Of a stretch of DNA of 58,163 nucleotides, positions 1 to 42,522 are shown piece after piece. Position 1 is the stretch's first letter, and the number at the start of each line of letters is the position of its first letter. The stretch lies in IMG/VR virus record IMGVR_UViG_3300032236_000551, positions 1-58,163 of that record. One strand, written 5' to 3'. The DNA is from a virus. The position numbers and the translations under genes were made by a program. Under the pieces are notes generated by a model. That model saw nothing but the letters and a program-made list of their open reading frames with translations, ran no database searches and was not told the DNA's origin.

Positions 1-121
1 CTTGAGTTGATGCACCAAGGGTACTGATATCAATCGTACCAGTTTCATTACTCACATCTTCAAAGTGAATAATAGTTTCTTGGTTTGTATTTCTTACCGT
101 AGTAAAATTCATTGTTGACAT
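1..121 (-). CDS. Small virion-associated protein, truncated by the window edge (N-terminal 40 aa)
   Basis: An open frame starts at ATG 121-119 and runs off the left edge with no stop, giving at least 40 residues. The start follows the stop of the upstream gene by 3 nt, and a GGGG stretch lies about 9 nt before it. A second in-frame ATG is codon 4. The sequence is polar and beta-prone (MSTMNFTTVRNTNQ at the N-terminus). In T4 the prohead core genes 67 and 68 are followed by gene 21, and this protein does not look like the gp21 protease. It is probably a small capsid or structural protein of unknown function. Only the N-terminus is visible. Confidence 0.6.
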   Translation of the reverse strand, partial: MSTMNFTTVRNTNQETIIHFEDVSNETGTIDISTLGASTQ

Positions 122-124
122 CTT

Positions 125-667
125 TTATTCCCCGAGTTCTTTTATAATTCTAATGAAGTTGTCTTTGCTTTCACGCATGTATTCAACAATCTCATTTTTG
201 TTCTCTAATACATTATTTAGTAGTTCTTGCGTAGATTCATTTATTGCAACAATAGATCCATCGTTAAGAACATACTGCAACTTTCCAGCAAATTCAGCAG
301 TCTTAGATTCTTTGATAGCTGTAACAACTGGGTCAATAGTAAACACATTGGAAGAGGCAAGTTCGATGTATGATTCGATCAAAGTATCTGTAATCTTTTC
401 GATGTTATGATATTGTCTAATATACTGTGCCACTTTTTCTTCTGGGATTGTCGTATCGATAGTATCTAATAGTTCTACATTTTCAATATATCTTTTAGCG
501 TATTCCCTTGCCTCTTCCAATGTGCTAACATTGGATTCAATGGACAAACCATTGATGTAAATCTCGTAGTCTTCCGTTACAGCCACATCGTGACCATACA
601 CCAAGAACGACGCAGTTAAACCTGCATCGCTCATTAGTCCTTTTTGGAATGACGAGAAAGATTTCAT
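125..667 (-). CDS. Prohead-region protein, 180 aa (position of T4 gp68)
   Basis: A 180-aa mostly helical, acidic protein. Its start overlaps the stop of the gp67-like gene by 4 nt, so translation is probably coupled. Gene order portal, gp67-like, this gene matches T4 20-67-68, where gp68 is a prohead scaffold-core component. I cannot claim direct similarity to gp68. Visible features are a hydrophobic N-terminal stretch (SDAGLTASFLVYGHDV), a helical middle and a charged helical C-terminus (EIVEYMRESKDNFIRIIKEL). A scaffold-associated role is inferred from position only. Confidence 0.6.
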   Translation of the reverse strand: MKSFSSFQKGLMSDAGLTASFLVYGHDVAVTEDYEIYINGLSIESNVSTLEEAREYAKRYIENVELLDTIDTTIPEEKVAQYIRQYHNIEKITDTLIESYIELASSNVFTIDPVVTAIKESKTAEFAGKLQYVLNDGSIVAINESTQELLNNVLENKNEIVEYMRESKDNFIRIIKELGE

Positions 668-3350: not shown

Positions 3351-5534
3351 TTAACCACCGATCTCTGTAAAGTTCGCAGAAGAGCGAGCAGCAACAAAGT
3401 TCAGAGTAATGAAGTTGATAGAGCGATTTGGCTTAATGAAGATATCAGCAACGAACTGGTTAGCGTCGATAACAGCACCAGTATTATTGGTGTCATCGCA
3501 CTTAACACGGAAGTCTACGATACCACGACGACCTTGAACATCACGGAGGAATGGCTCGACTAAGTTCTTGAACTGAGCACGAGTAAATCCATCATTGAAT
3601 TCAAACAACTGGAATTTAGCAGCAGTTGCAATTGCCTTCTCAAGAACGATAAACAAGCGACGGACATTGATACGATCAAATGCGCTTGGTTTAGCTTGAA
3701 GAGTCTTGTCACCGTAAAGAACAATTCCTTGTCCTGGGAAAGAAACAACTGGGTTAACACCAGCTTTGTAGAGAGCATCTCTAGCAGTTTGATCTGGGTT
3801 GAACGCCAACTTAACGATGTTCTTGATAGTACCACGATTGTATCCACCTGGAGAATACCATGCATCATTAGTTTGATCTGTACGAGCGCACAAACCAGCG
3901 ATGTCAGCATTCAATGGAACATAACGATATCTATCGTTGTAACGATCGTACTGATATTTGTAACCAGAATCCATAACAGCGTAGCTGTGGATAGTATTCA
4001 TCATATTGCGGAAAGCAATAACTTTATCAGTTGAAGAAGAAGTGTTACCAATAATTGGATCACCAGAATCAACATCTTGTGGAGAAACGAAAGCAACGCA
4101 GTCAGCACGAGTTTGAGCGATGTCAGCGATCATTGCAGCAGTTTCAGCATCAGCTTTACCAGCGATCAATAAGCTGATATCATACAATTCAGCATTTGAG
4201 AACAAGTCGTAAGCAGATTGTTGTTGGCCAGTAGTGATTGTATAATCATCAACACCACCAGACAACTGCCAGTATGCTGGAGCAGATGCGCTAGTAAATG
4301 CAGTTGATTCAGCAGAAGTTCCCCAATCAGCATTCATACCTTGTGGTAAATCTGTCCACCATACATAGGCAGAAGAAGTATTGATTACATTCTTGTAGTA
4401 GTTGTTTGTGCCGTCTGATTTACGAGCATCAGATGCTTTAGAAGCAAAAGCAAATTTCTCAAGAACAGTTCCTGGAACACCAGTCCATTTACCAATTGAG
4501 TCAACAACAACGATATGCAATTCATCGTTTGATCCGCCAATACCAGCTGCATAAGCAGAAGTTCCTGGAGCTGAATCAAAGTTTGACATGTAATCCCAGT
4601 CAGCAAAAGTATCAGCATCAGCATAAGAAACTAACAATGAGTTACCTAATGAGCCTGGATATTTTGCAGCGAACTCGCCAATTACACCACCACCATTAAC
4701 GAATGATGCTAGGTAGTCTTCAGAGTTTTTAATTTTTACACCAGCAGTTGTAATTGCTCTGTTTAAAGTAGCAGTAACTCCTGAAGGAGGAGCAGCAACA
4801 GTAACAGTTGGAGCTTCTGCATAACCAGTACCAGCATTATCGATAACAACGCTAGCAATAGTTGAAGCAGCAATAGTTACAGTACCAGCAGAAGCTGGAG
4901 CAGTATGTGTACCAGTAATAGTAACAGTTGGAGTTGCTTTGTAACCAGTTCCTGGCTCATCGATAACGATACCAGTAATTACACCGCCAACAACAGTAGC
5001 ATGAGCAGTAGCAGTAGTATTACCATCACCACCTGGAGCAGAAATAGTAATTGATACTGAATCGTAACCTGTACCGCCAGAAGCAACTGCAATCGCAGTA
5101 ATTGAACCACCAGATAAAGTTACATGCGCAGTAGCCTGAACACCACCATCTTCATCAGGAGCACTGATGGTAACATGAGGTGCAGCAGCAGTAGAGGTAT
5201 AACCACTACCTGCGTTATTAATTGTTAGGCTAGAAAGACCGCCTGTTTTTGTTGCGACAGCATTTTTACCATTTGTTGAATCAGTACGAACTAACAAAAG
5301 ATTGTTAGCGTATGACAGGAAGTTAGCTGCTGAAAAGAAAGATTGGAAGTTGGAATCGTTTGGTTTTCCGAATTGTTGAACCAAAACATTTTCCGAAGAA
5401 ACTGTGATAGGTTGCATAACTGGACCCCAAGCAAAAGATCCCGCAAATGCACCAACAGAAGAACTAACTGCTGGAACGATTGACGAAAAGTCTTTTTCTA
5501 CGACTGCAACACCTGGACTAAGTTGAAAAGGCAT
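3351..5534 (-). CDS. gp18: Contractile tail sheath protein with inserted GxGY repeats
   Basis: 727 aa against 659 in T4 gp18. The N-terminus (PFQLSPGVAVVEKDFSSIVPAV) is the classic sheath start, and the C-terminal region (RINVRRLFIVLEKAIATA, then FEFNDGFTRAQFKNLVEPFL) is the conserved sheath core. The sheath surrounds the tube and contracts to drive infection. Residues about 100-265 are an insertion of four beta repeats, each with a G[ST]GY turn (GSGYT, GTGYD, GTGYK, GTGYA), probably decorating the outer tail surface. It has its own promoter-like motif and an AAGGAG ribosome site. Confidence 0.95.
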   Translation of the reverse strand: MPFQLSPGVAVVEKDFSSIVPAVSSSVGAFAGSFAWGPVMQPITVSSENVLVQQFGKPNDSNFQSFFSAANFLSYANNLLLVRTDSTNGKNAVATKTGGLSSLTINNAGSGYTSTAAAPHVTISAPDEDGGVQATAHVTLSGGSITAIAVASGGTGYDSVSITISAPGGDGNTTATAHATVVGGVITGIVIDEPGTGYKATPTVTITGTHTAPASAGTVTIAASTIASVVIDNAGTGYAEAPTVTVAAPPSGVTATLNRAITTAGVKIKNSEDYLASFVNGGGVIGEFAAKYPGSLGNSLLVSYADADTFADWDYMSNFDSAPGTSAYAAGIGGSNDELHIVVVDSIGKWTGVPGTVLEKFAFASKASDARKSDGTNNYYKNVINTSSAYVWWTDLPQGMNADWGTSAESTAFTSASAPAYWQLSGGVDDYTITTGQQQSAYDLFSNAELYDISLLIAGKADAETAAMIADIAQTRADCVAFVSPQDVDSGDPIIGNTSSSTDKVIAFRNMMNTIHSYAVMDSGYKYQYDRYNDRYRYVPLNADIAGLCARTDQTNDAWYSPGGYNRGTIKNIVKLAFNPDQTARDALYKAGVNPVVSFPGQGIVLYGDKTLQAKPSAFDRINVRRLFIVLEKAIATAAKFQLFEFNDGFTRAQFKNLVEPFLRDVQGRRGIVDFRVKCDDTNNTGAVIDANQFVADIFIKPNRSINFITLNFVAARSSANFTEIGG

Positions 5535-7256: not shown

Positions 7257-7991
7257 TTACAGTGCGTCTTGCCAAGATTGTGTAATATCACCATTACTAA
7301 AGTCGCCAACTGCATTATACTTGGTACCAAAATCAGTACCAGTTGCATTGACATAAACTGTATTGATTGGACCACCAGCGGAAATTGGACCAAAGAAATT
7401 CATTTTAAGAGTAAAAGTAATTGTATAAATTACCATGCGTCTTTCTTGAAACTCACCATCAAAGTTATCTTCGATACTAACATTATTCATAATAATAGGA
7501 ATATCAAGATCAACACTCATTCTTGGAATGGCTTTGATAACTAAAGTAAACTCTGGTGTAAAGAATGGTAATATTTGCTCAACAATCTGCAAAGCATCTT
7601 CTTGAGTCTTAGTAAGAATATACAATGAAACATCAATATTGTATGGCACTGGTGAATATTGAGTTTTCATTGTTGGCGCAGAAGGGTTGCTATTATCATA
7701 ACAAGAAATCTGAGCCATACGATTTGTTTTGCGAGAAGCGTCATACGACATACCAGTAATCTCAAAAGACATTCTTGGCATTGTAGTATAGGTATGTTTT
7801 TCTAATGATGGATCTTGTTCAACACGAACTAGCCATTTTTCTTTTGGTGCATATGTTAGTGGAATAACAATTTCTTGCCCAATAGTTCCGTCAGTTTTTT
7901 CTCTTTGAATTTTAAGATTACTGAACATCGAACCGAAAGCAACAATAACTTTACGAGTTAATCCGTGATAAAATGGAGGTACATTAAGCAT
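7257..7991 (-). CDS. gp15: Tail terminator / sheath stabiliser
   Basis: 244 aa (T4 gp15 is 272). gp15 forms the hexamer that caps the finished tail tube and sheath and joins the tail to the neck. The N-terminal MLNVPPFYHGLTRKVIVAFGSMF and the middle segment TMPRMSFEITGMSYDASRKTN are recognisable T4 gp15-family features. The start codon overlaps the gp14 stop by one base (TAATG). The order 13-14-15-17 is that of T4 with only gene 16 missing. Confidence 0.9.
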   Translation of the reverse strand: MLNVPPFYHGLTRKVIVAFGSMFSNLKIQREKTDGTIGQEIVIPLTYAPKEKWLVRVEQDPSLEKHTYTTMPRMSFEITGMSYDASRKTNRMAQISCYDNSNPSAPTMKTQYSPVPYNIDVSLYILTKTQEDALQIVEQILPFFTPEFTLVIKAIPRMSVDLDIPIIMNNVSIEDNFDGEFQERRMVIYTITFTLKMNFFGPISAGGPINTVYVNATGTDFGTKYNAVGDFSNGDITQSWQDAL

Positions 7992-8905
7992 TATTGAATA
8001 TCCCCGAACGGATTATTAACATTGAATACCAAATCTGTTGCTTCTGATTTAAACTTAACATTATCACCATAAGAGTTTGGTAAATCTGGATCTGGTTCAA
8101 TTGTGCAATAACCAGTTGCTTGATCACCAACATCTGGCGCAGCAATTTGTAATGTTGGTGCGGTATCGTATCCAGTTCCAACATCAGTAATAGTCAATTT
8201 AGTAACTGCACCACCAGAAATTGTAGCGACAACTTTAGCTGGCTTCCATGCAGCAGTTCCATTACCACCACTCAATATAACTTCAGGAACTGAAGTATAT
8301 CCAGAACCACCATAAGTTAAGAATACATGGGTAACTGCACCAGTTGCATTTCTTGCGTAATCAGTATCGTAAGATTTAAGAGTTTCGAAAACATCGATAT
8401 CTTTGAATCCAGTATCGATATGCTCGGAAGCATATTGGAAAAGTTCAACTTGAAGTTTGTAAACATATAGTTTACCAAGTTGATAAAATGGATCTTGGTG
8501 TTGAACAAACTTAATTTCAAATAAACCTTTTGTTAAAGGAAAATATAATAAATCTCCCTCACAAGGTCTATTTGGAAGTTGAGCTGCTCCGAATCTACCA
8601 ACCAACTGATCCCATCTACGACGAGCAACAGTAAGGGTTGCAGACTGTTCCATCATCAAACCAAATTTATTAATGAATGCGCCTTGTCCCTCGAATCCAT
8701 CTACAGACTCGAGATACATTTCAATACCGAATGCCTGTTTAAATTCAGACAAACGATCTTCACCCAAGATATTATCTTTTGCTACGAGAATTCTTGGAAT
8801 GTAATAGAAGTCCTGTCCATAAATCTGTAAGGACTCTATAATAATATCTTCCAGTAGGTATTGCTCGTTGCCAGTACCTTGAGAAAAGTAAACATTTCTT
8901 GCCAC
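7991..8905 (-). CDS. gp14: Neck protein with GxGY insertion
   Basis: 304 aa against 256 in T4 gp14. gp13 and gp14 form the neck that closes the filled head and binds the tail. The N-terminus (QGTGNEQYLLEDIIIESLQI, then DFYYIPRILVAKDNILGED) is strongly gp14-like. Between about residues 190 and 275 there is an insertion with at least two beta repeats (GGSGYTSVPEV, VGTGYDTAPTL) of the type also found in the sheath and gp8. The gp14 C-terminus resumes after it (DLVFNVNNPFGDIQ). Confidence 0.9.
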   Translation of the reverse strand: MARNVYFSQGTGNEQYLLEDIIIESLQIYGQDFYYIPRILVAKDNILGEDRLSEFKQAFGIEMYLESVDGFEGQGAFINKFGLMMEQSATLTVARRRWDQLVGRFGAAQLPNRPCEGDLLYFPLTKGLFEIKFVQHQDPFYQLGKLYVYKLQVELFQYASEHIDTGFKDIDVFETLKSYDTDYARNATGAVTHVFLTYGGSGYTSVPEVILSGGNGTAAWKPAKVVATISGGAVTKLTITDVGTGYDTAPTLQIAAPDVGDQATGYCTIEPDPDLPNSYGDNVKFKSEATDLVFNVNNPFGDIQ

Positions 8906-9923: not shown

Positions 9924-12900
9924 TTACATTCCTAACTTTGCTTTTAATTCTTCGATTTGTTTTTGCTGTTCTTTAATTGCTTCAACCAACAATGGAACTA
10001 AACGCTCGTAGTGGATAGTTAAATATTGTTCATCAATTGGGGCTGGAACAACAACTTGCGGAAGAACTGCCTGAACCTGCTGAGCAGATAAACCGACTTC
10101 TTCTTTAGTTCCATCATATCCCAATGCCTGAGCAGTTTCGTTTGCAGTATAGTGAAAACCATCGAGAGAAAGAACTTTCTCAAGAGCATTCTCAATATTA
10201 CCAGAACGAGTTTTAAGTCTTTCGTCTGAGTAGTAAGAAGTGATTGTTGCAATCGCACGGATCTCACCAGCAGTAGTAGATGCTGCAGTACCAACACCGA
10301 TAGAGTTAAATTGGTAATCACCAGTTGTACCAGTATGAGGTGTGGTTCCAGAAGAAGCAGCAGTCAATCGACCTTGTGCATCAACAGTAATACTTGCGTA
10401 TGTATAAGAACCAGCAGTAACAGCAGTATTGGCAAGAGCAATAGTAACTGCGCTAGAGCCATTATATGAAGTTCCAGATAAACCAGTACCAATTGTTAAT
10501 GCATTTAAGTTACTACCTAACGAAACACCAGAAATAGTAGAGTTAGATAGTTTTGAATTGGCAATAGAACCAGCCAACATAGTATTAGTAACAGTTGCAC
10601 TATCACCAGTAGTAACGATAGTACCAGTTGTAGCTGGCATAGTAAGAACAGTGCCAGTACCAGCAGTTGCAGCAGGAATTAACTGAACAGAACCAGAAGT
10701 AGATCCTGGGAATGTTACACTAGTAATACCAGTTAATGCCAAGTTAGCAGAAGCACGACTTAATGTTACTGCAGTAGTACCAATGTAATTAGTATCAGAT
10801 TGATAAGCTACTGTTCCACCAGCACCAAAGGCAACTGAAGAAGAATCAGTTCCAGTAAATGTTAGTGTATTAGAAACAGTCGCTGTTTTACCATTGGCAA
10901 TTGTTAAAGTGCCAGTGCTTGAACTAATCGTTAATCCATTGATAGATGTTGCAGTTGCAGCACCAAGAGTTGGAGTTACGAGAGTAGGACTATTGGAGAA
11001 AACTACTGATCCAGAACCAGTTTCATCTGTAAGAGCTGCAGCAAGCTGAGCAGAGGTAGTAGTTAATGTATTGTTTGCTAAGTTGATAGTCTTATTAGTA
11101 AGAGTATCAGTAGTTGCTTTACCAACTAAAGTATCAGTTGCAGCTGGTAGTGTTAATGTATTTGATCCAGCAATCGCAGTTGCTTGAACAGCAATAGAAC
11201 CTGAAGTAGAACCACTAAATGTAGCACTAGTGGTAATAGTTGGAGTAGTAATAGTTGGTGAAGTATCAAGAACAACTTTACCAGAACCAGTTTTATCGGT
11301 TAATTGTGTTCCGTTAATTTTGAACACATTACCAGAACCAGCAGTATCAAAAGTTTTATTAGTAAGAGTATCAGTAGTTGCTTTACCAACTAAAGTATCA
11401 GTTGCCAAAGGTAGTGTTACAGTATTAGAACCAGAGTTGGTTAAAATTGTAGCAATCTTTGGAGTAGTCAGAGTCTTATTAGTAAGAGTATCTGTTGTAT
11501 CACGACCAACTAAAGTATCAGTTGCTGCTGGTAGTGTTAATGTTCCAGAAGCAGCTGCAGCTGGTTGAACTAAAGTAGTACCAGAAGAAGATCCAGCAAA
11601 TGTGAACCCAGCACCTTTAAACTTACCGTATGTTCCAGAGAACACACCACCTGTTTCAGTACCATCTACATAAAACTCTATTTGTTGAGAGTCATTACCC
11701 AACAACAATGCAGCATTTTTGTCTGAAGTTTTATAGTAGTGGAAACGAAGACCGATGTCTTTACCATCATCAGATGTTAATGTACCACCATTTGTATAAT
11801 GTAGTTCTAAGATTGAGTCTGCATAAGAAGTATTTGCAGAGTTAGCTGTGATTGTTGTACCATTAACTGTTAAGTTTCCAGTAACAACAGCATTGTTATT
11901 GATTGTAGTTGTACCAGTTGAAGCACCGATAGAAACTGCAGTAGCAGCGCCACCAATATTAACTATTGTTGAATTTGTATTAACAATGTTAGCAGTACCT
12001 GCAGAAGTAGTAATACTACCACCATTAACAGCTAAGTTTCCTGTATTAGTTTGATCGCCAGTAACTGCCAATGTTCCAGCAATGCTAGCATTATCACCAA
12101 CATAAAGTTTCTTGGCAATACCAGCACCACCATCAACACGGAGAGCACCAGTAGAAGTGCTTGATGAATCGCCAGTTGTTTTAATATAGAACTGACCAGT
12201 GCTGTGGATAAAACGCATCTTTTCATTTGCGCTTAAGAAACCACCAGTTGCAAATAAAATATCGTTTGTAGTTCCTGCGCCACCAGTGGCAAGAACCATA
12301 TTTCCTGCTAATCCAGTTCCAGTTTTAGATAGAACAAAGAAATAACCATCGTTCTTACCAGTAATAGTATAGTTACTATCGCTGAAGTTAGAACCAGTCA
12401 TACCCATGTCAGCCCAACCACCAGTGTCGTCGCCATTGTCACCATAAGCAACATAGTCGGCAGAGCCAGTATTAGTTGAGTTTAATAAACCGATTTGAGT
12501 ATAAGCAGAACCAGAATTTTTAGCAACAATAATTGGAGCAGTTAAACCCAATGCATAAGCACCAGAACCAACATATAATGAACCAGCAGCTTGGATATTT
12601 TTAGCAACACCAAGACCACCAGCAAGAACTAAACCACCATTATTGGTAGTAGTAGATTCTGTTGCATTATTAATTGTTACAGTTCCAGAAGCAGCACCCA
12701 ACGAAACTGTAGTAGCTGCACCACCAATATTAAGAGTAGTTGCTACTGTATTAAATAGGTTTTGAGTCGTGTTAGAACCAACAATAGTTCCAGTTCTTTC
12801 TAACAAACGAGAATAATTCCAACCACCAATTTTAGTTGATGCTGTATTTGTAGCATCAGCAGCATAAAATTCTAGTTCATCATTAGAAGCACCTGGAGAT

Positions 12901-15224
12901 GTTTCAGGAATAATATATGTTAAACCATCAACAGATTTAACACCACCTAAAGAACCCCAAGCTGAATCTGCATAACCTTCGAAAGTATGAAGGTCAGTAT
13001 TATAACGCATTTGACCAGTAGCAGCAGTTGGTCGCTGAGAAGTTGTACCTACTGGAACTTGGATAGACTTAACGCTATTAAATACTGTTTGTGCATTATT
13101 AACAGTTAATGTTCCAGTAGAAGCACCGATAGCAATAGTAGTTGCAGCACCAAAAGCATTAACAGTAGTAGCATTGGTATTTACAATATTAAATGTAGTA
13201 GACCCAGAATCAACTGTTAAATCTCCACCTTTAATCTGCACATCACCATCAACTGTTAAATTGTGTTTAATTTCAGCATCATAACCAATAGTGGTAGTTC
13301 CGCTAGAAGTAGAACCGATATTAGTTGTAGTAGCTGCACCACCAAGATTAATAGTAGTGGCAGTTGTATTAAACAAATTCTGAGTAGTATTATAACCAAC
13401 AACAGTTCCTGGATTTACAGTTAATGTAGCAGAACCTGTAGCACCTAATGCTACAGCTGTTGCTGAATCACCGATAGTGATTGATGTTTGTCCATCAGCA
13501 AATAATTTTGTTGCTTCAAGAACTTTAGTGTTATTAATTTTAAAAGTTTTTGTAGAAGCGATATTCCAATGTTCGCTTGAAGTCCAATTAGAATTTGCAT
13601 TGTCCCAGATAATAGTTTTATCTGTATCACCTTTAAGAGTAATACCACCACCATCTGCAGTTGTATTTGTAGGAGTGGCAACTTTACCAAGTTCAATATT
13701 TTTATCATCAACTGTAACAGTAGTTGAGTGAACAGTAGTAGTTGTTCCATTTACAGTTAAATTTCCTGTAATAACTGTATTGGCATTATTGATTGTTAAT
13801 GTTCCAGTAGAAGCACCAATAGAAATTGTAGTGGCTGCACCGAAAGCATTGACAGTAGTAGCGTTTGTATTTGCAAAAGTAAATGTAGTGTTTGGAGTTG
13901 TTACTACACCAGCATTTAAATTGATTGTTCCATAAAGCGGAGTGATCGCTGTAGCCAAAGTAAATGTTAAATCATTTGTTCCATCAGATCCACCCAAAGA
14001 AGAACCCGATAATGTTACAGTATCTCCAACAATATATCCAGATCCAACATTACCGCTACTGTATGTAACAGTAGTATTGCCAGTTTGAGTAACTGCAGTT
14101 ACAGTTCCAGCAACAGGAGTTGTTCCACCAGTAACAGTATATGTGATAGTATTTGCATCTACGATTGAAGTAACAACACAAGATGATGGTGATCCGCCAT
14201 ACAAATAACCAACACTATGGGTAGCAGTAATTGGTGCACCAACAACAAATCCAGCAGTAGATGTTAATCCTGTTAAAGTTGCTGTCCATGGACCAGATCC
14301 ACTAACAGCAGTAATAGTTCCAACTGTAGCATTACCACCAACAAAATTCGCTGCATAGTATGCACCCGAACCAGTTTTAACTACATTAAATTTGGCACTA
14401 GATCCATAACCTGAACTAGATTTTTGAGAAACATTACTATATGTTGACGCAGAAGTTGTCGATACCCCAGTTGGGTATGCAAAAGTTGTGCTGGAAGAAA
14501 TAGCACCAGAGGTATTATTACCAATAGTGATAGAAGTTCCAGAACCAAATAATGTTGGAGTTGTTGGAGATTTAAAGAAATTTGTTGCGCCAATTGTAGA
14601 ATCAATTGCAGTTAAACCATTAATCGCAGAGGCAGTTGTACCAACAGTAACGGCAGTACTACCGATAGTAATATCAGAAGTAACCCATGTTGGAGCAACT
14701 CCTGCTCCAGCAGATTGTAACACATAACCAGTAGTACCAGCAGTAATAAATCCTGTACTATTAGCGTCAATTTGATATAACAACTGACCAGCAGATCCAG
14801 AAGCAATGTTACTTGCTGTTACCGCAGTAGTTGCAGTACCAACTGTTAATGATGATTGAGATAACCAAATTGGTGTTCCACTACCAGCTGAAGATAGAAC
14901 CTGTCCAGATGAACCAGCTGAAGTTAAAGCAATACCAGTACTATTAGAATAAGCAATGGCACCAGCTGTCGCAGTTAATGAAGAATTGGTACCACCATAT
15001 CCGAGAGGAATATTATTTCCGTTCCAAGTAGAACCAGAACCAAATGTTTTATTTTGAAAAGTTTGCGAACCAGTAAGAGTTGGAACCGCATTACCACCTG
15101 GAGTTACACCATCGTGAACTCTAAGGTTTTTATTATCGGTATCAACTGTGATCTCTCCCAACGCTCCAGTGAACGAATCGTTTTGAGTAGCAGTTCCTCT
15201 TCTAAATTGTACTTGTGTGGACAT
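9924..15224 (-). CDS. Giant tail fibre with C-terminal S74 intramolecular chaperone
   Basis: 1766 aa. The N-terminus (VQFRRGTATQNDSFTGALGE, then VDTDNKNLRVHDGVTPGG) is an Mtd-N-like virion-anchoring motif shared by many phage fibres. The body is Ser/Thr/Gly/Ala-rich beta sequence with recurring blocks: ATxVNAFGAATTIxIGASTGT, TTDTLTNKT, LPAATDTLVG and a central RPTAATGQMRYNTD cassette. The last ~115 residues are a peptidase S74 / endosialidase-type chaperone (ITSYYSDERLKTRSGNIENA), which folds trimeric fibres and then cleaves itself off, usually at the Ser before DERLK. A coiled coil ends the protein. A late-promoter motif and AGAGGAAA lie just upstream. Confidence 0.88.
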   Translation of the reverse strand: MSTQVQFRRGTATQNDSFTGALGEITVDTDNKNLRVHDGVTPGGNAVPTLTGSQTFQNKTFGSGSTWNGNNIPLGYGGTNSSLTATAGAIAYSNSTGIALTSAGSSGQVLSSAGSGTPIWLSQSSLTVGTATTAVTASNIASGSAGQLLYQIDANSTGFITAGTTGYVLQSAGAGVAPTWVTSDITIGSTAVTVGTTASAINGLTAIDSTIGATNFFKSPTTPTLFGSGTSITIGNNTSGAISSSTTFAYPTGVSTTSASTYSNVSQKSSSGYGSSAKFNVVKTGSGAYYAANFVGGNATVGTITAVSGSGPWTATLTGLTSTAGFVVGAPITATHSVGYLYGGSPSSCVVTSIVDANTITYTVTGGTTPVAGTVTAVTQTGNTTVTYSSGNVGSGYIVGDTVTLSGSSLGGSDGTNDLTFTLATAITPLYGTINLNAGVVTTPNTTFTFANTNATTVNAFGAATTISIGASTGTLTINNANTVITGNLTVNGTTTTVHSTTVTVDDKNIELGKVATPTNTTADGGGITLKGDTDKTIIWDNANSNWTSSEHWNIASTKTFKINNTKVLEATKLFADGQTSITIGDSATAVALGATGSATLTVNPGTVVGYNTTQNLFNTTATTINLGGAATTTNIGSTSSGTTTIGYDAEIKHNLTVDGDVQIKGGDLTVDSGSTTFNIVNTNATTVNAFGAATTIAIGASTGTLTVNNAQTVFNSVKSIQVPVGTTSQRPTAATGQMRYNTDLHTFEGYADSAWGSLGGVKSVDGLTYIIPETSPGASNDELEFYAADATNTASTKIGGWNYSRLLERTGTIVGSNTTQNLFNTVATTLNIGGAATTVSLGAASGTVTINNATESTTTNNGGLVLAGGLGVAKNIQAAGSLYVGSGAYALGLTAPIIVAKNSGSAYTQIGLLNSTNTGSADYVAYGDNGDDTGGWADMGMTGSNFSDSNYTITGKNDGYFFVLSKTGTGLAGNMVLATGGAGTTNDILFATGGFLSANEKMRFIHSTGQFYIKTTGDSSSTSTGALRVDGGAGIAKKLYVGDNASIAGTLAVTGDQTNTGNLAVNGGSITTSAGTANIVNTNSTIVNIGGAATAVSIGASTGTTTINNNAVVTGNLTVNGTTITANSANTSYADSILELHYTNGGTLTSDDGKDIGLRFHYYKTSDKNAALLLGNDSQQIEFYVDGTETGGVFSGTYGKFKGAGFTFAGSSSGTTLVQPAAAASGTLTLPAATDTLVGRDTTDTLTNKTLTTPKIATILTNSGSNTVTLPLATDTLVGKATTDTLTNKTFDTAGSGNVFKINGTQLTDKTGSGKVVLDTSPTITTPTITTSATFSGSTSGSIAVQATAIAGSNTLTLPAATDTLVGKATTDTLTNKTINLANNTLTTTSAQLAAALTDETGSGSVVFSNSPTLVTPTLGAATATSINGLTISSSTGTLTIANGKTATVSNTLTFTGTDSSSVAFGAGGTVAYQSDTNYIGTTAVTLSRASANLALTGITSVTFPGSTSGSVQLIPAATAGTGTVLTMPATTGTIVTTGDSATVTNTMLAGSIANSKLSNSTISGVSLGSNLNALTIGTGLSGTSYNGSSAVTIALANTAVTAGSYTYASITVDAQGRLTAASSGTTPHTGTTGDYQFNSIGVGTAASTTAGEIRAIATITSYYSDERLKTRSGNIENALEKVLSLDGFHYTANETAQALGYDGTKEEVGLSAQQVQAVLPQVVVPAPIDEQYLTIHYERLVPLLVEAIKEQQKQIEELKAKLGM

Positions 15225-25766: not shown

Positions 25767-27287
25767 TCATCCTATTGCTAAAGTTACATAACCACTACCA
25801 TTATTGGATCCAGCGCCAGATCCGTCATAAGACACATTAGATATATATGACGAATTATAATAGGAAGAACCTCCCCCACCCATACCACCACCTTGACCAC
25901 AATGTGAAGTCATTCCACCACCACCGAACCAGCCTGCGCCACCAGCACCACCAGCATTTCCGCAGTTACCGTTTTGGCCACCATAGAATGTAGATCCGTC
26001 ACCGCAACCATTTGAAGAACCGCCATTGTCGATTCCACCTACACCACCAGAGGATTGACTGCCACCTTGTGCAATTCGGTTGGCAGTATTTGTATTTCCT
26101 TGACCACCATTTGGATATCCAGCATTTCCAGAATCTGGAGTATCACCATCACCAGCGCCACCGCCAGCACCACCGACTATGTAGTATGTAGATCTATTAC
26201 CAGTGTTTAATGGATCACTAGTACCTGACCAGAAACCAGAGAAGCCACCACCAGTAGTTCCACCACCACCGCCTGATGGACCACCACCTGGATAGCCACC
26301 AGCCACATTACTACTGCCTTGGAAGTTACCAGTAGCACCAACCACAACATAGTAGTTAGAAGCTGCAGGAATACTAGAGTATGTGCCAGTCATAATAGCA
26401 CCATAACCTCCAGGAGTATTTGATGGACTACTATTACCACCTTTTGCACCAGCACAAGTTACTCTTAAACTATGAGCATTATAAACAGTTATTGGATAAA
26501 CAGTTCCAGCTGAAGAAAGAGTTACTGTTTGAGTAGTACCAGTATTATAGTAGGTAGTTCCGTTGACTGATAATAATCTCTTAACAGTAGTTATGCTAAA
26601 TGAACGATCAGCATAGAAGTTATTTGCAGATGCTCTAACTGTAAAAGATGCAGTCGCTGAAGTATCTGGGAATGTTCCTGTAATTACACCACTAGTGCTC
26701 AACGAGAGTCCAGAAGGTAGTGAACCAGAAACTACGCTGAATGAAATTGTATTGCCATCAGGATCAGTAGCTGATAAACTAATGTTTGCAGAAGATCCAC
26801 CATTAAATGATCCTAGCGAACCAGCTGATGTTGACCAAATTGGTTCTCTGTCCACAGTTCCAGCTGGATCTAAAATTGAAGATAGTCCTGATGGATTTTG
26901 AACTTTAATTGAAAACGCAGCACCCCCAACATAGTTGACTGATGCAGCAGCAGTTGCTGCAGTTAATTGAGCTGAATTAACATAGGTGGTAGATAATGCT
27001 CTTTGCACATTGCTAACACCAGCACCATTAATGTAAACAATAGATCCAGATTTGAATCCTGTTCCATTAATTGTTATTGTTGAATTTATATCTTGATTGA
27101 TTGTTCCAGTAAAGGATGTGATTGCAGGAGGGCTGTCTACAGCTGTCCAACCATTGGCTGTATAAATTTCCATTAAGCCAATGTCTGTGTTAAACCTCAT
27201 CATACCCTCTACGCCAGTTGGGCGATTTGCAGAACTATCTGCAGGGAGAGTAATTGCTTCTGGTCCAAGAATTGTTGGTTGACCCAT
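25767..27287 (-). CDS. Adhesin with TIG/Ig domains and ALK-like glycine-rich domain (copy C)
   Basis: 506 aa. Domain order: N-terminal GPEAITLPADSSANRP and GMMRFNTDIGLMEIYTANGW anchor cassette; IPT/TIG-like domain (~55-150, ITSFTGTINQDINSTITING); putative Ig (He_PIG-like) domain (~155-245, GSLPSGLSLSTSGVITGTFP); linker VKRLLSVNGTTYYNTGSTQT-type strand; then a ~230-residue glycine-rich domain ending GSGYVTLAIG. Conserved Cys occur at VTCAGAKGG, GCGDGS, NGNCGN and SHCGQGGG. The Gly-rich domain resembles the ALK/LTK glycine-rich fold and, functionally, the polyglycine tips of T-even adhesins. Likely receptor binding. Its Ig part is closest to copy B but its Gly-rich part to copy A. Confidence 0.75.
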   Translation of the reverse strand: MGQPTILGPEAITLPADSSANRPTGVEGMMRFNTDIGLMEIYTANGWTAVDSPPAITSFTGTINQDINSTITINGTGFKSGSIVYINGAGVSNVQRALSTTYVNSAQLTAATAAASVNYVGGAAFSIKVQNPSGLSSILDPAGTVDREPIWSTSAGSLGSFNGGSSANISLSATDPDGNTISFSVVSGSLPSGLSLSTSGVITGTFPDTSATASFTVRASANNFYADRSFSITTVKRLLSVNGTTYYNTGTTQTVTLSSAGTVYPITVYNAHSLRVTCAGAKGGNSSPSNTPGGYGAIMTGTYSSIPAASNYYVVVGATGNFQGSSNVAGGYPGGGPSGGGGGTTGGGFSGFWSGTSDPLNTGNRSTYYIVGGAGGGAGDGDTPDSGNAGYPNGGQGNTNTANRIAQGGSQSSGGVGGIDNGGSSNGCGDGSTFYGGQNGNCGNAGGAGGAGWFGGGGMTSHCGQGGGMGGGGSSYYNSSYISNVSYDGSGAGSNNGSGYVTLAIG

Positions 27288-27291
27288 TTTG

Positions 27292-28830
27292 TTATCCTAT
27301 TGCTAAAGTTACATAACCATCACCACCTCTGGCTCCATTGGAGTAGGTGAAATTGGAAATATATGAACTGTTATAGTATGAAGAGCCACCGCCACCAGCA
27401 CCTCCACCTTGTCCGCAGTGAGAATTACCACCACCACCTCCGTACCAACCACCACCGCCACTACCACCTTGTCCAGTATTATCAGGACATATACCAGCAG
27501 AGCCACCATAAAATGCAGAACCAGCGCCAGCACCTTGAGTGCCAGCATCTGTTGAAACACCAGCACTACCACCAGAGGATTGAGTACCACCACCTGGAAT
27601 TTGCATGCTAGTGTTATTTGTATTTCCATTTGAACCTGATGGATAACCAGCATCACCACCTCTAGATGCACCCAATCCATTGGTGCCTGCACCAGTATCA
27701 GATGAGTGACCACCGCCACCACCGCCAATCAAATAATATGTAGATCTATTTCCAGTATTTAATGGATCGCTAGTGCCTGACCAGAAACCAGAAAAACCAC
27801 CACCTCCGTTATTAGATGTAGTAGGATAACCACCGCCACCACCTGGATAACCACCAACATTACTATTAGGTCTTTTTCCTACAACTGCATAGTATGTTCC
27901 TGCTGGAATAGATGCATATGTTCCTTGGACATAACCACCATAACCAGAAGTAAGGTTAGTTCCGTCATAAACAGATCCACCTTGAGCACCAGCCAGCGAC
28001 ACAGTTAAATTGTGAGCAGAGTAAACAGTAATCGGATAAACAGTACCAGCACTAGATAAGGTTACTGTTTGAGTAGAACCAGTGTTATAGTATGTTGTTC
28101 CATTGACAGCCAATAATCGTTTAACTGTTGCAATACTAAATGCACGATCAGCATAAACAGTATTTGAAGATGCTCTAACTGTAAAACTGCTAGTTCCAGT
28201 TGTATCTGGGAATGTTCCAGTAATAACGCCACTAGTGCTTAGTGATAAGCCAGAAGGTAAAGAACCTGATACTACTGTATATTGGATCGCTTGCCCATCA
28301 GGATCCGTAGCAGATAAAGTAATATTTGCAGAAGATCCACCATTAAATGATCCTAGCGAACCAGCTGATGTTGACCAAATTGGTTCTCTATCAATAGATC
28401 CAGCAGCAGTAAGAACACCTGTTAATCCAGAAGGGTTTACAACTTTAACATCAAAGGACGCACCACCAACATAGTTGACTGATGCAGCAGCAGTTGCTGC
28501 AGTTAAAGATGTAGAATTTACATAGGTTGTTGACAGCACTCTTGGCACGCCACTAACACCAGCACCTTCGATCTGAACATAAGATGTAGATTTAAAATTT
28601 GTTCCAGTAACAGTAATAGTTGTATTAATGTCTTGGTTGATAATACCAGAAATACTACCAACTGTTGGAGGTGCATCAATTGCAGTCCATCCATTGGCTG
28701 TATAAATTTCAGCCAAGCTGATAGTTGTATTGTAACGAATCATACCCTCTACGCCACTCGGTCTATTTGCCGATGTGTCTGCAGGAAGGGTTATCGCCTG
28801 TGGTCCAAGAACTGTTGGTTTAGTTGCCAT
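27292..28830 (-). CDS. Adhesin with TIG/Ig domains and ALK-like glycine-rich domain (copy B)
   Basis: 512 aa, middle of three tandem paralogues with the same domain order. The anchor (MATKPTVLGPQAITLPADTS) and the FSGFWSGTSDPLNTGNRSTY core of the Gly-rich domain are nearly identical to the other copies. The tip differs: it lacks the GDGDTPNSGNAGYP and GMTSHCGQ segments of copies A and C and has YDGTNLTSGYGGYVQ, SSDTGAGTNGLGASRGG and GICPDNTG instead. This suggests divergent receptor specificity. A 65-nt block in the Ig domain (28325-28389) is identical to copy C (26785-26849). Confidence 0.75.
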   Translation of the reverse strand: MATKPTVLGPQAITLPADTSANRPSGVEGMIRYNTTISLAEIYTANGWTAIDAPPTVGSISGIINQDINTTITVTGTNFKSTSYVQIEGAGVSGVPRVLSTTYVNSTSLTAATAAASVNYVGGASFDVKVVNPSGLTGVLTAAGSIDREPIWSTSAGSLGSFNGGSSANITLSATDPDGQAIQYTVVSGSLPSGLSLSTSGVITGTFPDTTGTSSFTVRASSNTVYADRAFSIATVKRLLAVNGTTYYNTGSTQTVTLSSAGTVYPITVYSAHNLTVSLAGAQGGSVYDGTNLTSGYGGYVQGTYASIPAGTYYAVVGKRPNSNVGGYPGGGGGYPTTSNNGGGGFSGFWSGTSDPLNTGNRSTYYLIGGGGGGHSSDTGAGTNGLGASRGGDAGYPSGSNGNTNNTSMQIPGGGTQSSGGSAGVSTDAGTQGAGAGSAFYGGSAGICPDNTGQGGSGGGGWYGGGGGNSHCGQGGGAGGGGSSYYNSSYISNFTYSNGARGGDGYVTLAIG

Positions 28831-28833
28831 TTA

Positions 28834-30366
28834 TTATCCTATTGCCAATGTGACATATCCGCTACCATTATTGGATCCAGCACCAGATCCGTCGTATGAT
28901 GGGCTAGAGATGTATGAACTATTGTAGTATGATGATCCACCTCCACCCATACCACCACCTTGACCACAATGTGATGTCATACCACCGCCACCATAGTAGC
29001 CACCTCCACCAGAGCCACCACCATTTCCGCAGTTACCATTTGCACCACCATAGAATGCTGATCCGTCACCACAACCCTCTGAAGATCCGTTAATATCAAT
29101 ACCACCAACACCACCAGAAGATTGACTGCCACCTTGTGCAACTCGGTTTGCTGAATTATAATTACCTTGTCCGCCAGCAGGATATCCAGCATTTCCAGAA
29201 TTTGGAGTATCACCGTCACCAGCGCCACCGCCACCACCGCCAATCAAATAATATGTAGATCTATTACCAGTGTTTAATGGATCACTAGTACCTGACCAAA
29301 AACCAGAGAATCCACCACCAGTTTGACCACCATTACTATTTGATGGACCACCACCTGGATATCCACCAGCTACAACACCGCTACTTTGGAAAAATCCTGA
29401 AGCTCCCACAACTGCATAATATGTTCCTACTGGAATAGATGAATATGTGCCAGCCATAACAGCACCATAACCTCCAGGACTATTAGAACTACTAGAACTA
29501 CTATTTCCACCTTTGGCGCCAGCACAAGTTACTCTTAAACTATGAGTAGAGTAAACAGTTATTGGATAAACAGTTCCAGCTGAAGAAAGAGTTACAGTCT
29601 GTGTTGAACCTGTGTTATAGTATGTTGTTCCGTTGACTGCCAGTAATCTTTTAACAGTTGAAATACTAAATGCTCTTGCAACACTAATACCAGTTGTATT
29701 AGTTATAGCAGTTACAGTAAAGGAAGATGTTGCAGTTGTATCAGGAACAGTACCAGTAATAACACCAGAAGAACTCAATGAGAGTCCAGAAGGTAGTGAA
29801 CCAGATGTTACCGAGAAAGATATAGATTGTGAATCACCATCTGAAGCAGATAGCGAGATATTAGCCGATGCACCACCATACAAAGTTCCTAGAGAACCAG
29901 CAGCAGTTGACCAAACTAAAGTTCTATCAATAGTTCCAGCAGCAGTAAGAACACCAGACAAACCAGATGGATTAACTACAGTAACATCAAAAGAAGCACC
30001 ACCAACATACGATACCAATGAAGCATTAGTAACTGCAGTTAATTGAGTTGAATTTACATAGGTTGTTCCCAAAACCCTTGGGGTATTAGAAACACCAGCA
30101 CCACCGATCTGAACATAAGATCCAGATTTAAAATTTGTTCCATTAACTGTTAGTGTTGTACTAACATTCTCGTTAATGATACCGCTAATAGATGTTATTC
30201 CAGGAGGAGCGTCGATAGCAGTCCACCCAGCAGAAGTATAAACTTCAGCTAATCCAATATCTGTATTGTAACGAAGCATCCCCTGAGTAGGAGATGGTCT
30301 ATTTGCTGAACTATCAGCAGGTAACTGTATTGCTTCTGGTCCAAGAACTGTTGGTTTAGTTGCCAT
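28834..30366 (-). CDS. Adhesin with TIG/Ig domains and ALK-like glycine-rich domain (copy A)
   Basis: 510 aa, first of three tandem paralogues. The TIG-like domain (ITSISGIINENVSTTLTVNG) and Ig domain (SVTSGSLPSGLSLSSSGVIT) are the most diverged of the three, while the C-terminal glycine-rich domain (GDGDTPNSGNAGYPAGGQG, EGCGDGSAFYGG, GMTSHCGQGGGMGGGGSSYY) is very close to copy C. The start overlaps the stop of the S74 chaperone gene by one base. Being directly downstream of a stand-alone S74 protein suggests the chaperone may act on these fibres in trans, which is speculative. Confidence 0.75.
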   Translation of the reverse strand: MATKPTVLGPEAIQLPADSSANRPSPTQGMLRYNTDIGLAEVYTSAGWTAIDAPPGITSISGIINENVSTTLTVNGTNFKSGSYVQIGGAGVSNTPRVLGTTYVNSTQLTAVTNASLVSYVGGASFDVTVVNPSGLSGVLTAAGTIDRTLVWSTAAGSLGTLYGGASANISLSASDGDSQSISFSVTSGSLPSGLSLSSSGVITGTVPDTTATSSFTVTAITNTTGISVARAFSISTVKRLLAVNGTTYYNTGSTQTVTLSSAGTVYPITVYSTHSLRVTCAGAKGGNSSSSSSNSPGGYGAVMAGTYSSIPVGTYYAVVGASGFFQSSGVVAGGYPGGGPSNSNGGQTGGGFSGFWSGTSDPLNTGNRSTYYLIGGGGGGAGDGDTPNSGNAGYPAGGQGNYNSANRVAQGGSQSSGGVGGIDINGSSEGCGDGSAFYGGANGNCGNGGGSGGGGYYGGGGMTSHCGQGGGMGGGGSSYYNSSYISSPSYDGSGAGSNNGSGYVTLAIG

Positions 30367-30938
30367 TATTTAACACCCTTTAATTCTTTTACTTGGGCTT
30401 CTAATTCTTTAATTGCTTCGATTAGCAATGGAACAATTTTTTCGTATTGAACTGTTTTATAATTTTCGCCTGAACGAGACATTTCTGTATTTTCAAATAC
30501 CATAATGTCAAATGGAGCAGGTTTAACTGCCTGAGGTAAAACTTTTTCTACATCAGCTGCAAGAACTCCAACCTGAGTTTCTTTGTTTGTAAATCCAAAA
30601 GACTCAGCCAACTCATTAGCGTTATATGTAACACCTCTTAGTTGTAAGACTTTTTCCAAAGCATTTGGAATTAACTCTACATTAGTTTTTAATCTCTCGT
30701 CTGAGTAGTAAGAAGTGATTGTTGCAATCGCACGGATCTCACCAGCAGTTCCAGAAGATGCAGTGCCAACACCAAGACTAGTAAAGGAAGCAGTAATAGA
30801 ATTATTATTTACAGCTGTTACCTCTAACTTATTATCGTTAAGATTAATAAAGTTTGCGTCAATTTCCTGACTCGTTAAAGGAGAGCCTTTGGCAGTACCA
30901 CCAGTTGGATTCGTAATTCTTGTTACAATTGTAGTCAT
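30366..30938 (-). CDS. Short fibre protein with S74 (endosialidase-type) chaperone domain
   Basis: 190 aa: a ~60-residue fibre-base N-terminus (TAKGSPLTSQEIDANFINLN) joined almost directly to an S74 intramolecular chaperone (ITSYYSDERLKTNVELIPNA ... LLIEAIKELEAQVKELKG, ending in a coiled coil). Normally S74 domains cap long fibres; here there is hardly any shaft. The catalytic Ser-Asp region before ERLK is intact. A 53-nt stretch is identical to the same region of the giant fibre gene 20 kb away. It might be a fibre stripped of its body by recombination, or a chaperone for neighbours. Confidence 0.8.
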   Translation of the reverse strand: MTTIVTRITNPTGGTAKGSPLTSQEIDANFINLNDNKLEVTAVNNNSITASFTSLGVGTASSGTAGEIRAIATITSYYSDERLKTNVELIPNALEKVLQLRGVTYNANELAESFGFTNKETQVGVLAADVEKVLPQAVKPAPFDIMVFENTEMSRSGENYKTVQYEKIVPLLIEAIKELEAQVKELKGVK

Positions 30939-39633: not shown

Positions 39634-42522
39634 TTAGAATTTGATGACAGTTCTTAAAGTAACTGTCTCATCTTTGGAAGGAGTAAATCCTGCCTTGTTA
39701 TCAATAAACAAACAGTCACCAGAATATTTATCCACAGTTGGGTTACCTACTGCAGTAACTGTAAAGAATTGGTTTGTTGGGTTTGTCATAACATCAGAAA
39801 CCTGCGGAGGATCATTATCCAACATCTGAACCAACATACCAGTTCCGCTTGCATTAACAGAAACAATTCTATAATTTCTGTAGTAAACTGTATCATTTAC
39901 TGTTCTTGGAGTTGTTATAATCATGTCTGGTAAAAATGATGCAGTATCAAAAGACCCTTCAACAACAAAACAAGCAGAACCTAATGCTGAGTCATATCTA
40001 GTTGTTACACCATAACCACGAATATTTTTGATAATACCAACTTGACGATAATCGTTATTTACATCAAATCCTTGGTTTTTATCTAAAGAAACATTCGAAT
40101 AAAACATTAATGTTCTTGCAAATAATTCTTCATAGGCATCTTTACCATGACCACCAAATGGCGAAATAATTGCTCTAGCGGAAGCTGCATATCCGTTACC
40201 AGTAATAGTAACATTTGCATATGTATAACCAGAACCATAATTTGTCATGTTTATTTTAACAACTTTACCACCAGAAAGAATTGCAGAAGCTGCAGCACCT
40301 GTGCCATCACCTTCGATAGTTACAGTAGCAGTACCATATGCATACCCCTGACTAATAACTTGGATATTGTTTATAGAACCATCAGTTGTTAAAAGTTCAT
40401 TGTTTGCTTGAAGCGTATTGATATTACCAATAGCAATATCAGCTGTAAGAAGGGCATTAGCTCCATCACCAGTAACAGTAATAGTTGCAGCACTGTAACC
40501 AATACCTGGATCATCAACTTGAACGCCATTGATTTGACCATTTTCCAATAAAGGAATCAATTTTGCTTCTGATTTGATAGAAGTAAATGCTGCTGAGAAT
40601 CCTGAACCAGTAGTTGTATTGATAGTAATAGATGGGTTACCGTTGTAACCAGCACCATATTGTAATACTGCTTCACCAGAAGCAGCAGAACCAACATATG
40701 TAAAATACGCAGTTCCGTTTTGTTCAGTAACACCCAACGAAGCTCCTGTTGGTGCAGTAGAAGAATCTGTAGTTCCAGATGTTTTTACAGTATATAAACG
40801 ATTGGCGACAAAATATTGTTCTCCAACATTAACTGTTTTTGAAGCAGTCCAAGGAGTTCCAATTGTAACTGATGGGGGTGCTGTATAATTATTTCCAGGA
40901 TCTGTAATGATAATTCTTTTAACAACACCAGTAGGAGATAAATCAGTAACTGCTGTTGGCAGTTGTAACTCATTGGATAATGTATGCGACAATCCAGTAC
41001 CAGCAGATGTTAAATTAACAGCAGTTCCATTCATAGCATTTGCGTATGTGGTAGCTAATTTAACAGCAGTAGAAGAATTTTTAATAATATAGTATGTTGT
41101 ATTATTTACTAATCCACCAATGGTAGTTCCACCACCATTAGAGTACATAACTTTATCGCCATCAGAAAACCAATGAGATCCAATTGTAATAACTTCAGAA
41201 GTTGTATTAACTCCAGTACCAGCAAATGTTATTGTTGGAGGGGTAAAGGTTACAACTGGATTTGTGTTATATCCTGATCCGAATGAAATCAAATCAACTT
41301 CACGAACTCCACCAAGAACATTGACGGTAATCGCACCAGCGTTAAATGACGGGTATGCCTTTGGAACAGAACCAATAAATTTAAATGCAGCAGTTCCATT
41401 TTCAACAGTACCAGTTTTGTGCGTTGGTTCTACTGAACCAGTAGTTCCAGCCTGAACAACTTCATAGATATTATTTTCTGAAGATAAAAGTTTAACACCG
41501 AAATAATAAGAAGTATTTGCAGTCCATGAAGCTGCAGTATCCATAGGTTTAGCAATAGTGATTGTGTCACCATCTGAATAAGAAGAACCATGGCTTGTAT
41601 ATGTGATTGAAGATAAAAATACTGGATCTGCTTCTAAGTATCCATCTCCTGAAACACTCAATGTTGCTTGAGTATAATTAACTCCTCGATTCTGAATGAT
41701 AACAGATTCAATACCACCAGCAGAATAAAATTGTTGCGATAAAGCAGTAATAACAGGAATTTGGTCTGCAGTTAAAAACTTAGTTCTTAACGCAATTGGT
41801 ACATTATACATGTATTTCCAAATGTATCCATCTGCAAGAGTAATCGGTGCAACTTGTGTTCCAATTGGTTTGTTTACAGAGAATGCACCATTATTATTGT
41901 CTAAACATTTATAGACATTGAACTCATCAGTCATTACATAAAACTGAGATTCTTCTAATTTTTGAGAATTGCTTGGTGCTTTTGATAATACACCAACAGC
42001 ATGCGCTGGATCAGCTTCAGTTCCACCACCAACAAATGTTATTGCTGGAGGGTTAGTATAACCAGAACCAGTATGCGTCATAGTGCAACCAATGATTTTA
42101 CTATTATACATGGTTGCTGTAGCTGTAGCCTGAACTCCACCAAATAAATCTGGTGGATCGATAACAACAGTTGGAGTGCTAGTGTAAGTATTTCCACCAT
42201 CAGTTATATTAATACCAATAACTTCAGTAGAATACTGATCATCATAGATATCGTAAACTGTACCAGAAACCCAATCAATCCTTGGAATAACAAAGGCAAC
42301 ATCTGAAGGTTTAATTTCCTTCAGAGTAATAATTTCATTACGAGTTGCCTTTTCATATTTGTAAGAGTCAGTTGGAAATGGTGGTGCAGTTTCATCTTCC
42401 CATTTAATTGTCTTACCAAGGAAATAGTAGTATCTCGAATTACGAGATTGAACCTCTTTAAACAAGCCATCAGCGATGGTTTTGTGTAAGAGAGTTTTTA
42501 AAAGAGAAGATGTGATTGTCAT
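39634..42522 (-). CDS. gp8: Baseplate wedge protein gp8, expanded by GxGY repeats
   Basis: 962 aa against 334 in T4 gp8. The gp8 framework is visible in pieces: YYYFLGKTIKWEDETAPPFP and VAFVIPRIDWVSGTVYDIYD (N-terminal), VYKCLDNNNGAFSVNKP and LADGYIWKYMYNVP (middle), and SGDCLFIDNKAGFTPSKDET with LRTVIKF (C-terminal end). Between and after these are about ten beta repeats with a G-x-x-Y turn (GNTYT, GSGYT, GVNYT, GSGYN, GNNYT, GAGYN, GIGYS, GYAYG, GSGYT). gp8 is a wedge dimer at the baseplate periphery; the repeats probably extend outward. No Shine-Dalgarno is evident before the start. Confidence 0.88.
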   Translation of the reverse strand: MTITSSLLKTLLHKTIADGLFKEVQSRNSRYYYFLGKTIKWEDETAPPFPTDSYKYEKATRNEIITLKEIKPSDVAFVIPRIDWVSGTVYDIYDDQYSTEVIGINITDGGNTYTSTPTVVIDPPDLFGGVQATATATMYNSKIIGCTMTHTGSGYTNPPAITFVGGGTEADPAHAVGVLSKAPSNSQKLEESQFYVMTDEFNVYKCLDNNNGAFSVNKPIGTQVAPITLADGYIWKYMYNVPIALRTKFLTADQIPVITALSQQFYSAGGIESVIIQNRGVNYTQATLSVSGDGYLEADPVFLSSITYTSHGSSYSDGDTITIAKPMDTAASWTANTSYYFGVKLLSSENNIYEVVQAGTTGSVEPTHKTGTVENGTAAFKFIGSVPKAYPSFNAGAITVNVLGGVREVDLISFGSGYNTNPVVTFTPPTITFAGTGVNTTSEVITIGSHWFSDGDKVMYSNGGGTTIGGLVNNTTYYIIKNSSTAVKLATTYANAMNGTAVNLTSAGTGLSHTLSNELQLPTAVTDLSPTGVVKRIIITDPGNNYTAPPSVTIGTPWTASKTVNVGEQYFVANRLYTVKTSGTTDSSTAPTGASLGVTEQNGTAYFTYVGSAASGEAVLQYGAGYNGNPSITINTTTGSGFSAAFTSIKSEAKLIPLLENGQINGVQVDDPGIGYSAATITVTGDGANALLTADIAIGNINTLQANNELLTTDGSINNIQVISQGYAYGTATVTIEGDGTGAAASAILSGGKVVKINMTNYGSGYTYANVTITGNGYAASARAIISPFGGHGKDAYEELFARTLMFYSNVSLDKNQGFDVNNDYRQVGIIKNIRGYGVTTRYDSALGSACFVVEGSFDTASFLPDMIITTPRTVNDTVYYRNYRIVSVNASGTGMLVQMLDNDPPQVSDVMTNPTNQFFTVTAVGNPTVDKYSGDCLFIDNKAGFTPSKDETVTLRTVIKF

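Follow-up and report, generated by a model that had tools for sequence, protein, structure and literature searches.

Domain I of the phage T4 tail sheath protein gp18 is a six-stranded barrel. As described in the sections of PMC3004832 on this domain, it comprises residues 98–188, is inserted in domain II and protrudes outward without inter-subunit contacts; its binding partners are the baseplate and the long tail fibres in their retracted state, and the domain I substitutions G106S, S175F and A178V inhibit fibre retraction. Extra beta domains, often Ig-like, are also found in type 2 and type 3 sheaths (Evseev et al. 2022, PMC9230969, sections on extra domains). These beta domains lie away from the tube side, as the GxGY insert that we report here probably does, and are thought to be dispensable for assembly, but they are compact, whereas our insert is made of a short repeat whose copy number varies among close relatives. 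The number of outer beta domains also varies among relatives of T4 Hoc and similar decoration proteins (PMC11821841, on decoration proteins), although these are separate capsid proteins with Ig-like folds and the GxGY array is an insert in the sheath. A variable-copy sheath repeat is not described in the extra-domain sections of PMC9230969, and the words 'Pelagibacter' and 'repeats' are absent from its main text. Searching the literature by title and abstract opening returned, among the matches listed, nothing on GxGY or on variable-copy sheath repeats, which does not prove absence.

The stretch analysed here (hereafter the window) is 58,163 nucleotides of viral DNA, IMG/VR record IMGVR_UViG_3300032236_000551. 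Its gp18 is a true T4-type contractile tail sheath. Three Pfam families were matched above their cut-offs (PF04984, 64.9 bits; PF17482, 58.1 bits; PF22671, 31.7 bits; by name Phage_sheath_1, Phage_sheath_1C and Gp18_domIII_N), the sheath family phrog_23 (E 2e-126) and the T4 gp18 chains (E 4.5e-93) were matched too, and a model of the full protein aligned to 3foa_A with Z 34.3. The features of the sheath gene are as follows.

3351..5534, minus strand: tail sheath protein gp18 (727 aa), from Pfam, PHROG and T4 gp18 matches
4743..5258, minus strand: variable insert (residues 93–264), conserved sheath on either side
4743..5240, minus strand: GxGY array (residues 99–264)
5103..5237, minus strand: GxGY unit 1 (about residues 100–144), 49.7 bits with the unit profile, boundaries approximate
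4983..5102, minus strand: GxGY unit 2 (about residues 145–184), 36.2 bits
4860..4982, minus strand: GxGY unit 3 (about residues 185–225), 32.5 bits
4743..4859, minus strand: GxGY unit 4 (about residues 226–264), 31.2 bits

The motif G[ST]GY stands at residues 109, 154, 195 and 235, and four copies were attained in 0 of 10,000 shuffles of the whole protein (mean 0.04) and again in 0 of 10,000 when the 165-residue segment was shuffled alone. The original prediction of four GxGY repeats at about residues 100–265 thus holds, both by the motif shuffles and by the unit profile (31–50 bits), and its coordinates (4739–5234) are near the array limits found here. It had also placed the repeats in the variable outer part of the sheath, and the array indeed occupies the site of T4 domain I.

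Comparison with other sheaths showed that the array is an insert between conserved flanks. In an alignment of 73 rows, which counts the window twice (as itself and as L001), column occupancy was ~1.0 in the flanks and 0.27–0.81 at residues 98–264. Among 94 distinct full-length sheaths, the array site otherwise holds 4–18 residues. Classed by number of units, 27 of these sheaths have none, 12 have two (inserts of 87–90 residues), one (L030) has three, 47 have four and seven have eight, where L046, L047 and L062 were classed as two-unit and L037 as four-unit by length, L033 as two-unit by recognised units, and the domain I site of L071 was manually assigned as empty (its 129-residue 'insert' is a misalignment); the HMM undercounts some arrays, with four of the seven eight-unit sheaths showing seven units, and L119 (543 aa) is probably missing its end. 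None of the 94 was classed as having one, five or six units. Mapped on a sheath-body tree, these classes require at least 13 changes, compared with 41.0 for shuffled labels. The eight-unit rows form one clade (SH-aLRT 99), and four empty sites (L060, L137, L142 and L150), each joined by five residues, are nested among four-unit sheaths. Our results therefore document a sheath repeat, its insertion and its variation in copy number. The even unit counts point to the pair as the body that folds, with the caveats that kinship lowers the number of independent cases and that L030, with three, tolerates an unpaired unit. The inserts also diverge faster than the sheath body: median identity to the window was 0.50 for inserts vs 0.69 for bodies, and the insert was lower in 38 of 38 comparisons.

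Additional domains occur elsewhere in these sheaths. Two GxGY units lie at residue 309 in L071, and ten further rows have other domains there, including L023, in which both sites are filled. At residue 399 (window alignment), two units are present in Xanthomonas phage X1 (L089). Counted over the 94 sheaths with kinship not removed, 66 have only the domain I site filled, 10 only site 309, one both and 17 neither. We also observed a third module of about 85–97 residues, nested in the array in L020, L021, L024, L027 and L033 and at residue 309 instead in L061 and L063. In Synechococcus phage S-ShM2 (L103, GU071096.1), the annotation divides gp18 between two overlapping genes.

Modelled alone, the window insert was predicted with a mean pLDDT of 93.5 and 12 strands, three per unit. 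When this model was compared with 797 solved chains by VIA-align, the best match was T4 gp18M (3foa) 99..186, nearly all of domain I, at rmsd 3.2 over 71 aligned residues (20% identity) and at Z 5.0, which is in a range where a shared beta arrangement alone can yield a match; the next best was an R1 pyocin fibre (Z 2.9), and antibody chains matched weakly (Z 2.0–2.4), which in itself is no evidence against an Ig fold. The aligned stretch starts at unit 2, with model residue 54 paired to T4 residue 99, and if this start is ungapped the G-x-x-Y motifs are in register. A Foldseek search of the PDB with the model returned no match with E below 1. Among predicted viral proteins, 35 matches reached E 0.001, several of them in cyanophage structural proteins. 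At the sequence level, the unit HMM scored T4 gp18 at 4.1 bits (i-E 0.055, not significant), and the insert profile recovered no related chain among PDB sequences, with the best hit (E 0.089) being the unrelated HPr, a chance match. Comparing the unit profile with the first unit of domain I from ten T4-type sheaths gave a score of 18.9 at a weak probability of 31%, above the best of 28 control segments (11.6) and of 100 column shuffles (14.4). When both flanks are aligned, the start and end of the array are the limits of T4 domain I.

A Z of this size is unsafe alone, and support is added by the position, the near-full cover of domain I, the motif register and a profile score above its controls. 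The model thus supports a T4-domain-I-like fold, and the insert may well share an ancestor with T4 domain I. Both are placed in the same gene at the same insertion point in domain II, T4 domain I (~90 residues) is the size of the two-unit inserts, and, like the repeat units, it has a G-x-x-Y turn with strands after it. Under a numbering without the start Met, G106 would correspond to the first glycine in the GSNY motif of T4, a numbering that we adopt because residue 106 counted with Met is a proline. Unlike the window, with its two pairs, T4 has a single pair with a diverged second half and no recognisable tandem repeat, and its charge is higher (24% vs 6.6% in the window insert). By this likeness, the GxGY array probably lies on the outer face of the contractile sheath.

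We ran a single-unit profile, derived from 123 distinct units in relatives (window and T4 excluded), on the 107 window open frames of at least 80 codons. Strong scores were obtained in three frames only, namely gp18, gp14 and gp8; one further frame had a 13-position match at E 0.0046. The gp14 gene (7991–8905) encodes a neck protein (T4_neck-protein, PF11649, on residues 12–166), and gp8 (gene 39634–42522) has ten units at or above 5.8 bits among 12 listed. The units in these two proteins are as follows.

8093..8347, minus strand: two GxGY units in gp14 (residues 187–271), 31.2 and 32.7 bits
42007..42219, minus strand: GxGY units in gp8 (residues 102–172), 39.6 and 20.1 bits
41506..41709, minus strand: two weaker GxGY-like units in gp8 (residues 272–339), 5.8 and 10.8 bits
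41191..41304, minus strand: GxGY unit in gp8 (residues 407–444), 15.9 bits
40825..40920, minus strand: GxGY unit in gp8 (residues 535–566), 20.6 bits
40579..40665, minus strand: GxGY unit in gp8 (residues 620–648), 12.6 bits
40159..40530, minus strand: three GxGY units in gp8 (residues 665–788), 22.7, 19.1 and 20.2 bits

These profile scores agree with the earlier expectation that one repeat type is common to sheath, neck and baseplate proteins, with two units in gp14 (31–33 bits) and ten in gp8, and one repeat fold could by extension coat the whole tail surface. The copy numbers of gp14 and gp18 showed no link across 103 gp14 matches: 97 have two units (some matches are clipped at contig ends), and two are present even in L137, L142 and L150, whose sheaths have no units. 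Among PHROG families, the window repeat segment matched phrog_460 (head closure Hc2), phrog_438 (baseplate wedge), phrog_5342 (tail fibre) and phrog_701 (virion structural protein) at E 1.5e-16 to 5.9e-07. The array is probably absent from the phrog_23 profile, because its 496 columns suffice to cover the 727-residue window sheath from one end to the other. A tblastn search of the insert in a phage collection recovered seven records, where the matched proteins were hypothetical or had other structural roles, and the BLAST low-complexity filter probably hides more relatives there. Between the GxGY units of gp8, at 41371–41526 and 40681–40815 (residues 333–384 and 570–614), we noted another segment type of the form W..t.Y..g..v..g..Y....aGt....P.h..g....G.., which is also found in L025, L029 and L034.

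We consider it probable that the repeats form an exterior decoration module at the T4 gp18 domain I site that serves as a docking or interaction surface. Each unit would contribute three beta-strands and two units would make one domain-I-like body, so that the four units of the window would give two such bodies per sheath subunit. The module would hang from a domain II loop outside the contractile core, be dispensable for contraction, and be lost, gained or doubled with the sheath body kept. Like T4 domain I, it would most likely work as an outward surface touching other tail parts or the surroundings; docking is our first choice because the T4 domain attaches to the baseplate and fibres and its mutants inhibit retraction, and the function is thus argued by analogy. 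The outward domain of T4 would then become one point in a natural series of 0, 2, 4 and 8 units, and close relatives with empty sites are natural deletion controls that make the role of sheath domain I testable. It also appears that a contractile machine can bear a variable surface load, which is relevant to the study and building of contractile tails. A more specific form, which we regard as very unlikely, is that the repeat is a docking rail for the long tail fibres, with gp8, gp18 and gp14 as stations on the path of T4's retracted fibres; if so, phages would tune fibre retention, and hence adsorption, by doubling or losing pairs of sheath units.

Rather unlikely, in our estimate, is that a mobile beta module landed in a tolerant loop at the domain I site and is not homologous to T4 domain I. 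Two-unit modules do occur at residue 309 (L071), at residue 399 (X1), in gp14 and in gp8, different domains are found at site 309 in other phages, and the sequence support for homology is weak; however, T4 domain I ranks first among 797 chains, is matched at near full length and has its motif in register, and none of the 28 segment controls or 100 shuffles attains the profile score. The original prediction had raised glycan binding or shielding, and the first of these is not upheld in its classical form. Exposed aromatic binding residues are typical of carbohydrate-binding modules, and the window insert has zero aromatics outside the GxGY motif; over 67 inserts, the median was 1.2% vs 11.5% in the sheath body. 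Charged residues were likewise few (median 2.9% in inserts vs 18.8% in bodies), and a Pfam search with the window sheath, taken to E 1, returned sheath families only, with no Ig and no CBM. The composition speaks against classical carbohydrate binding, and a classical carbohydrate-binding module was rejected on the few aromatics, the low charge and the lack of a CBM Pfam match. An adhesion module that, like phage Ig-like domains, weakly binds host or environmental polysaccharide along the whole tail is quite unlikely on the same data, even though the extra sheath domains elsewhere are often Ig-like with weak carbohydrate binding proposed (PMC9230969, sections on extra domains). The segment of the W..t.Y form noted above that is nested in the array of one relative (L025) resembles CBM_5_12 (E 0.0021), at 18.5 bits below the 26.2 cut-off, but three of the four nested segments tested have no CBM match.

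Low charge, few aromatics and fast divergence fit an exposed surface under little contractile-core constraint, and a shielding role is possible given the low charge. That the array is a passive coat, an uncharged Gly/Ala/Ser/Thr-rich surface against sticking, aggregation and proteases, we hold to be highly improbable. It would accord with the low charge, with a Gly+Ala+Ser+Thr content of 64% in inserts vs 34% in bodies and with the tolerated losses of the array, but composition says nothing direct on function, and unit identity across relatives is kept by position (0.47–0.54 between units at the same position and 0.39 between those at different ones), a pattern that inheritance alone would also give.

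Elsewhere in the window, three paralogous proteins of 506–512 aa with glycine-rich C-terminal parts (25767–30366) are perhaps fibre or adhesin variants. A baseplate-wedge-like protein (43013–44863) has C-terminal tandem short Asp-Ser-Ile-Thr/Asp-Thr-Pro-Ser-Asp copies. Two genes (9924–15224 and 30366–30938) share YYSDERLKT near the C-terminus, a segment that we take to be typical of intramolecular chaperones of fibres.
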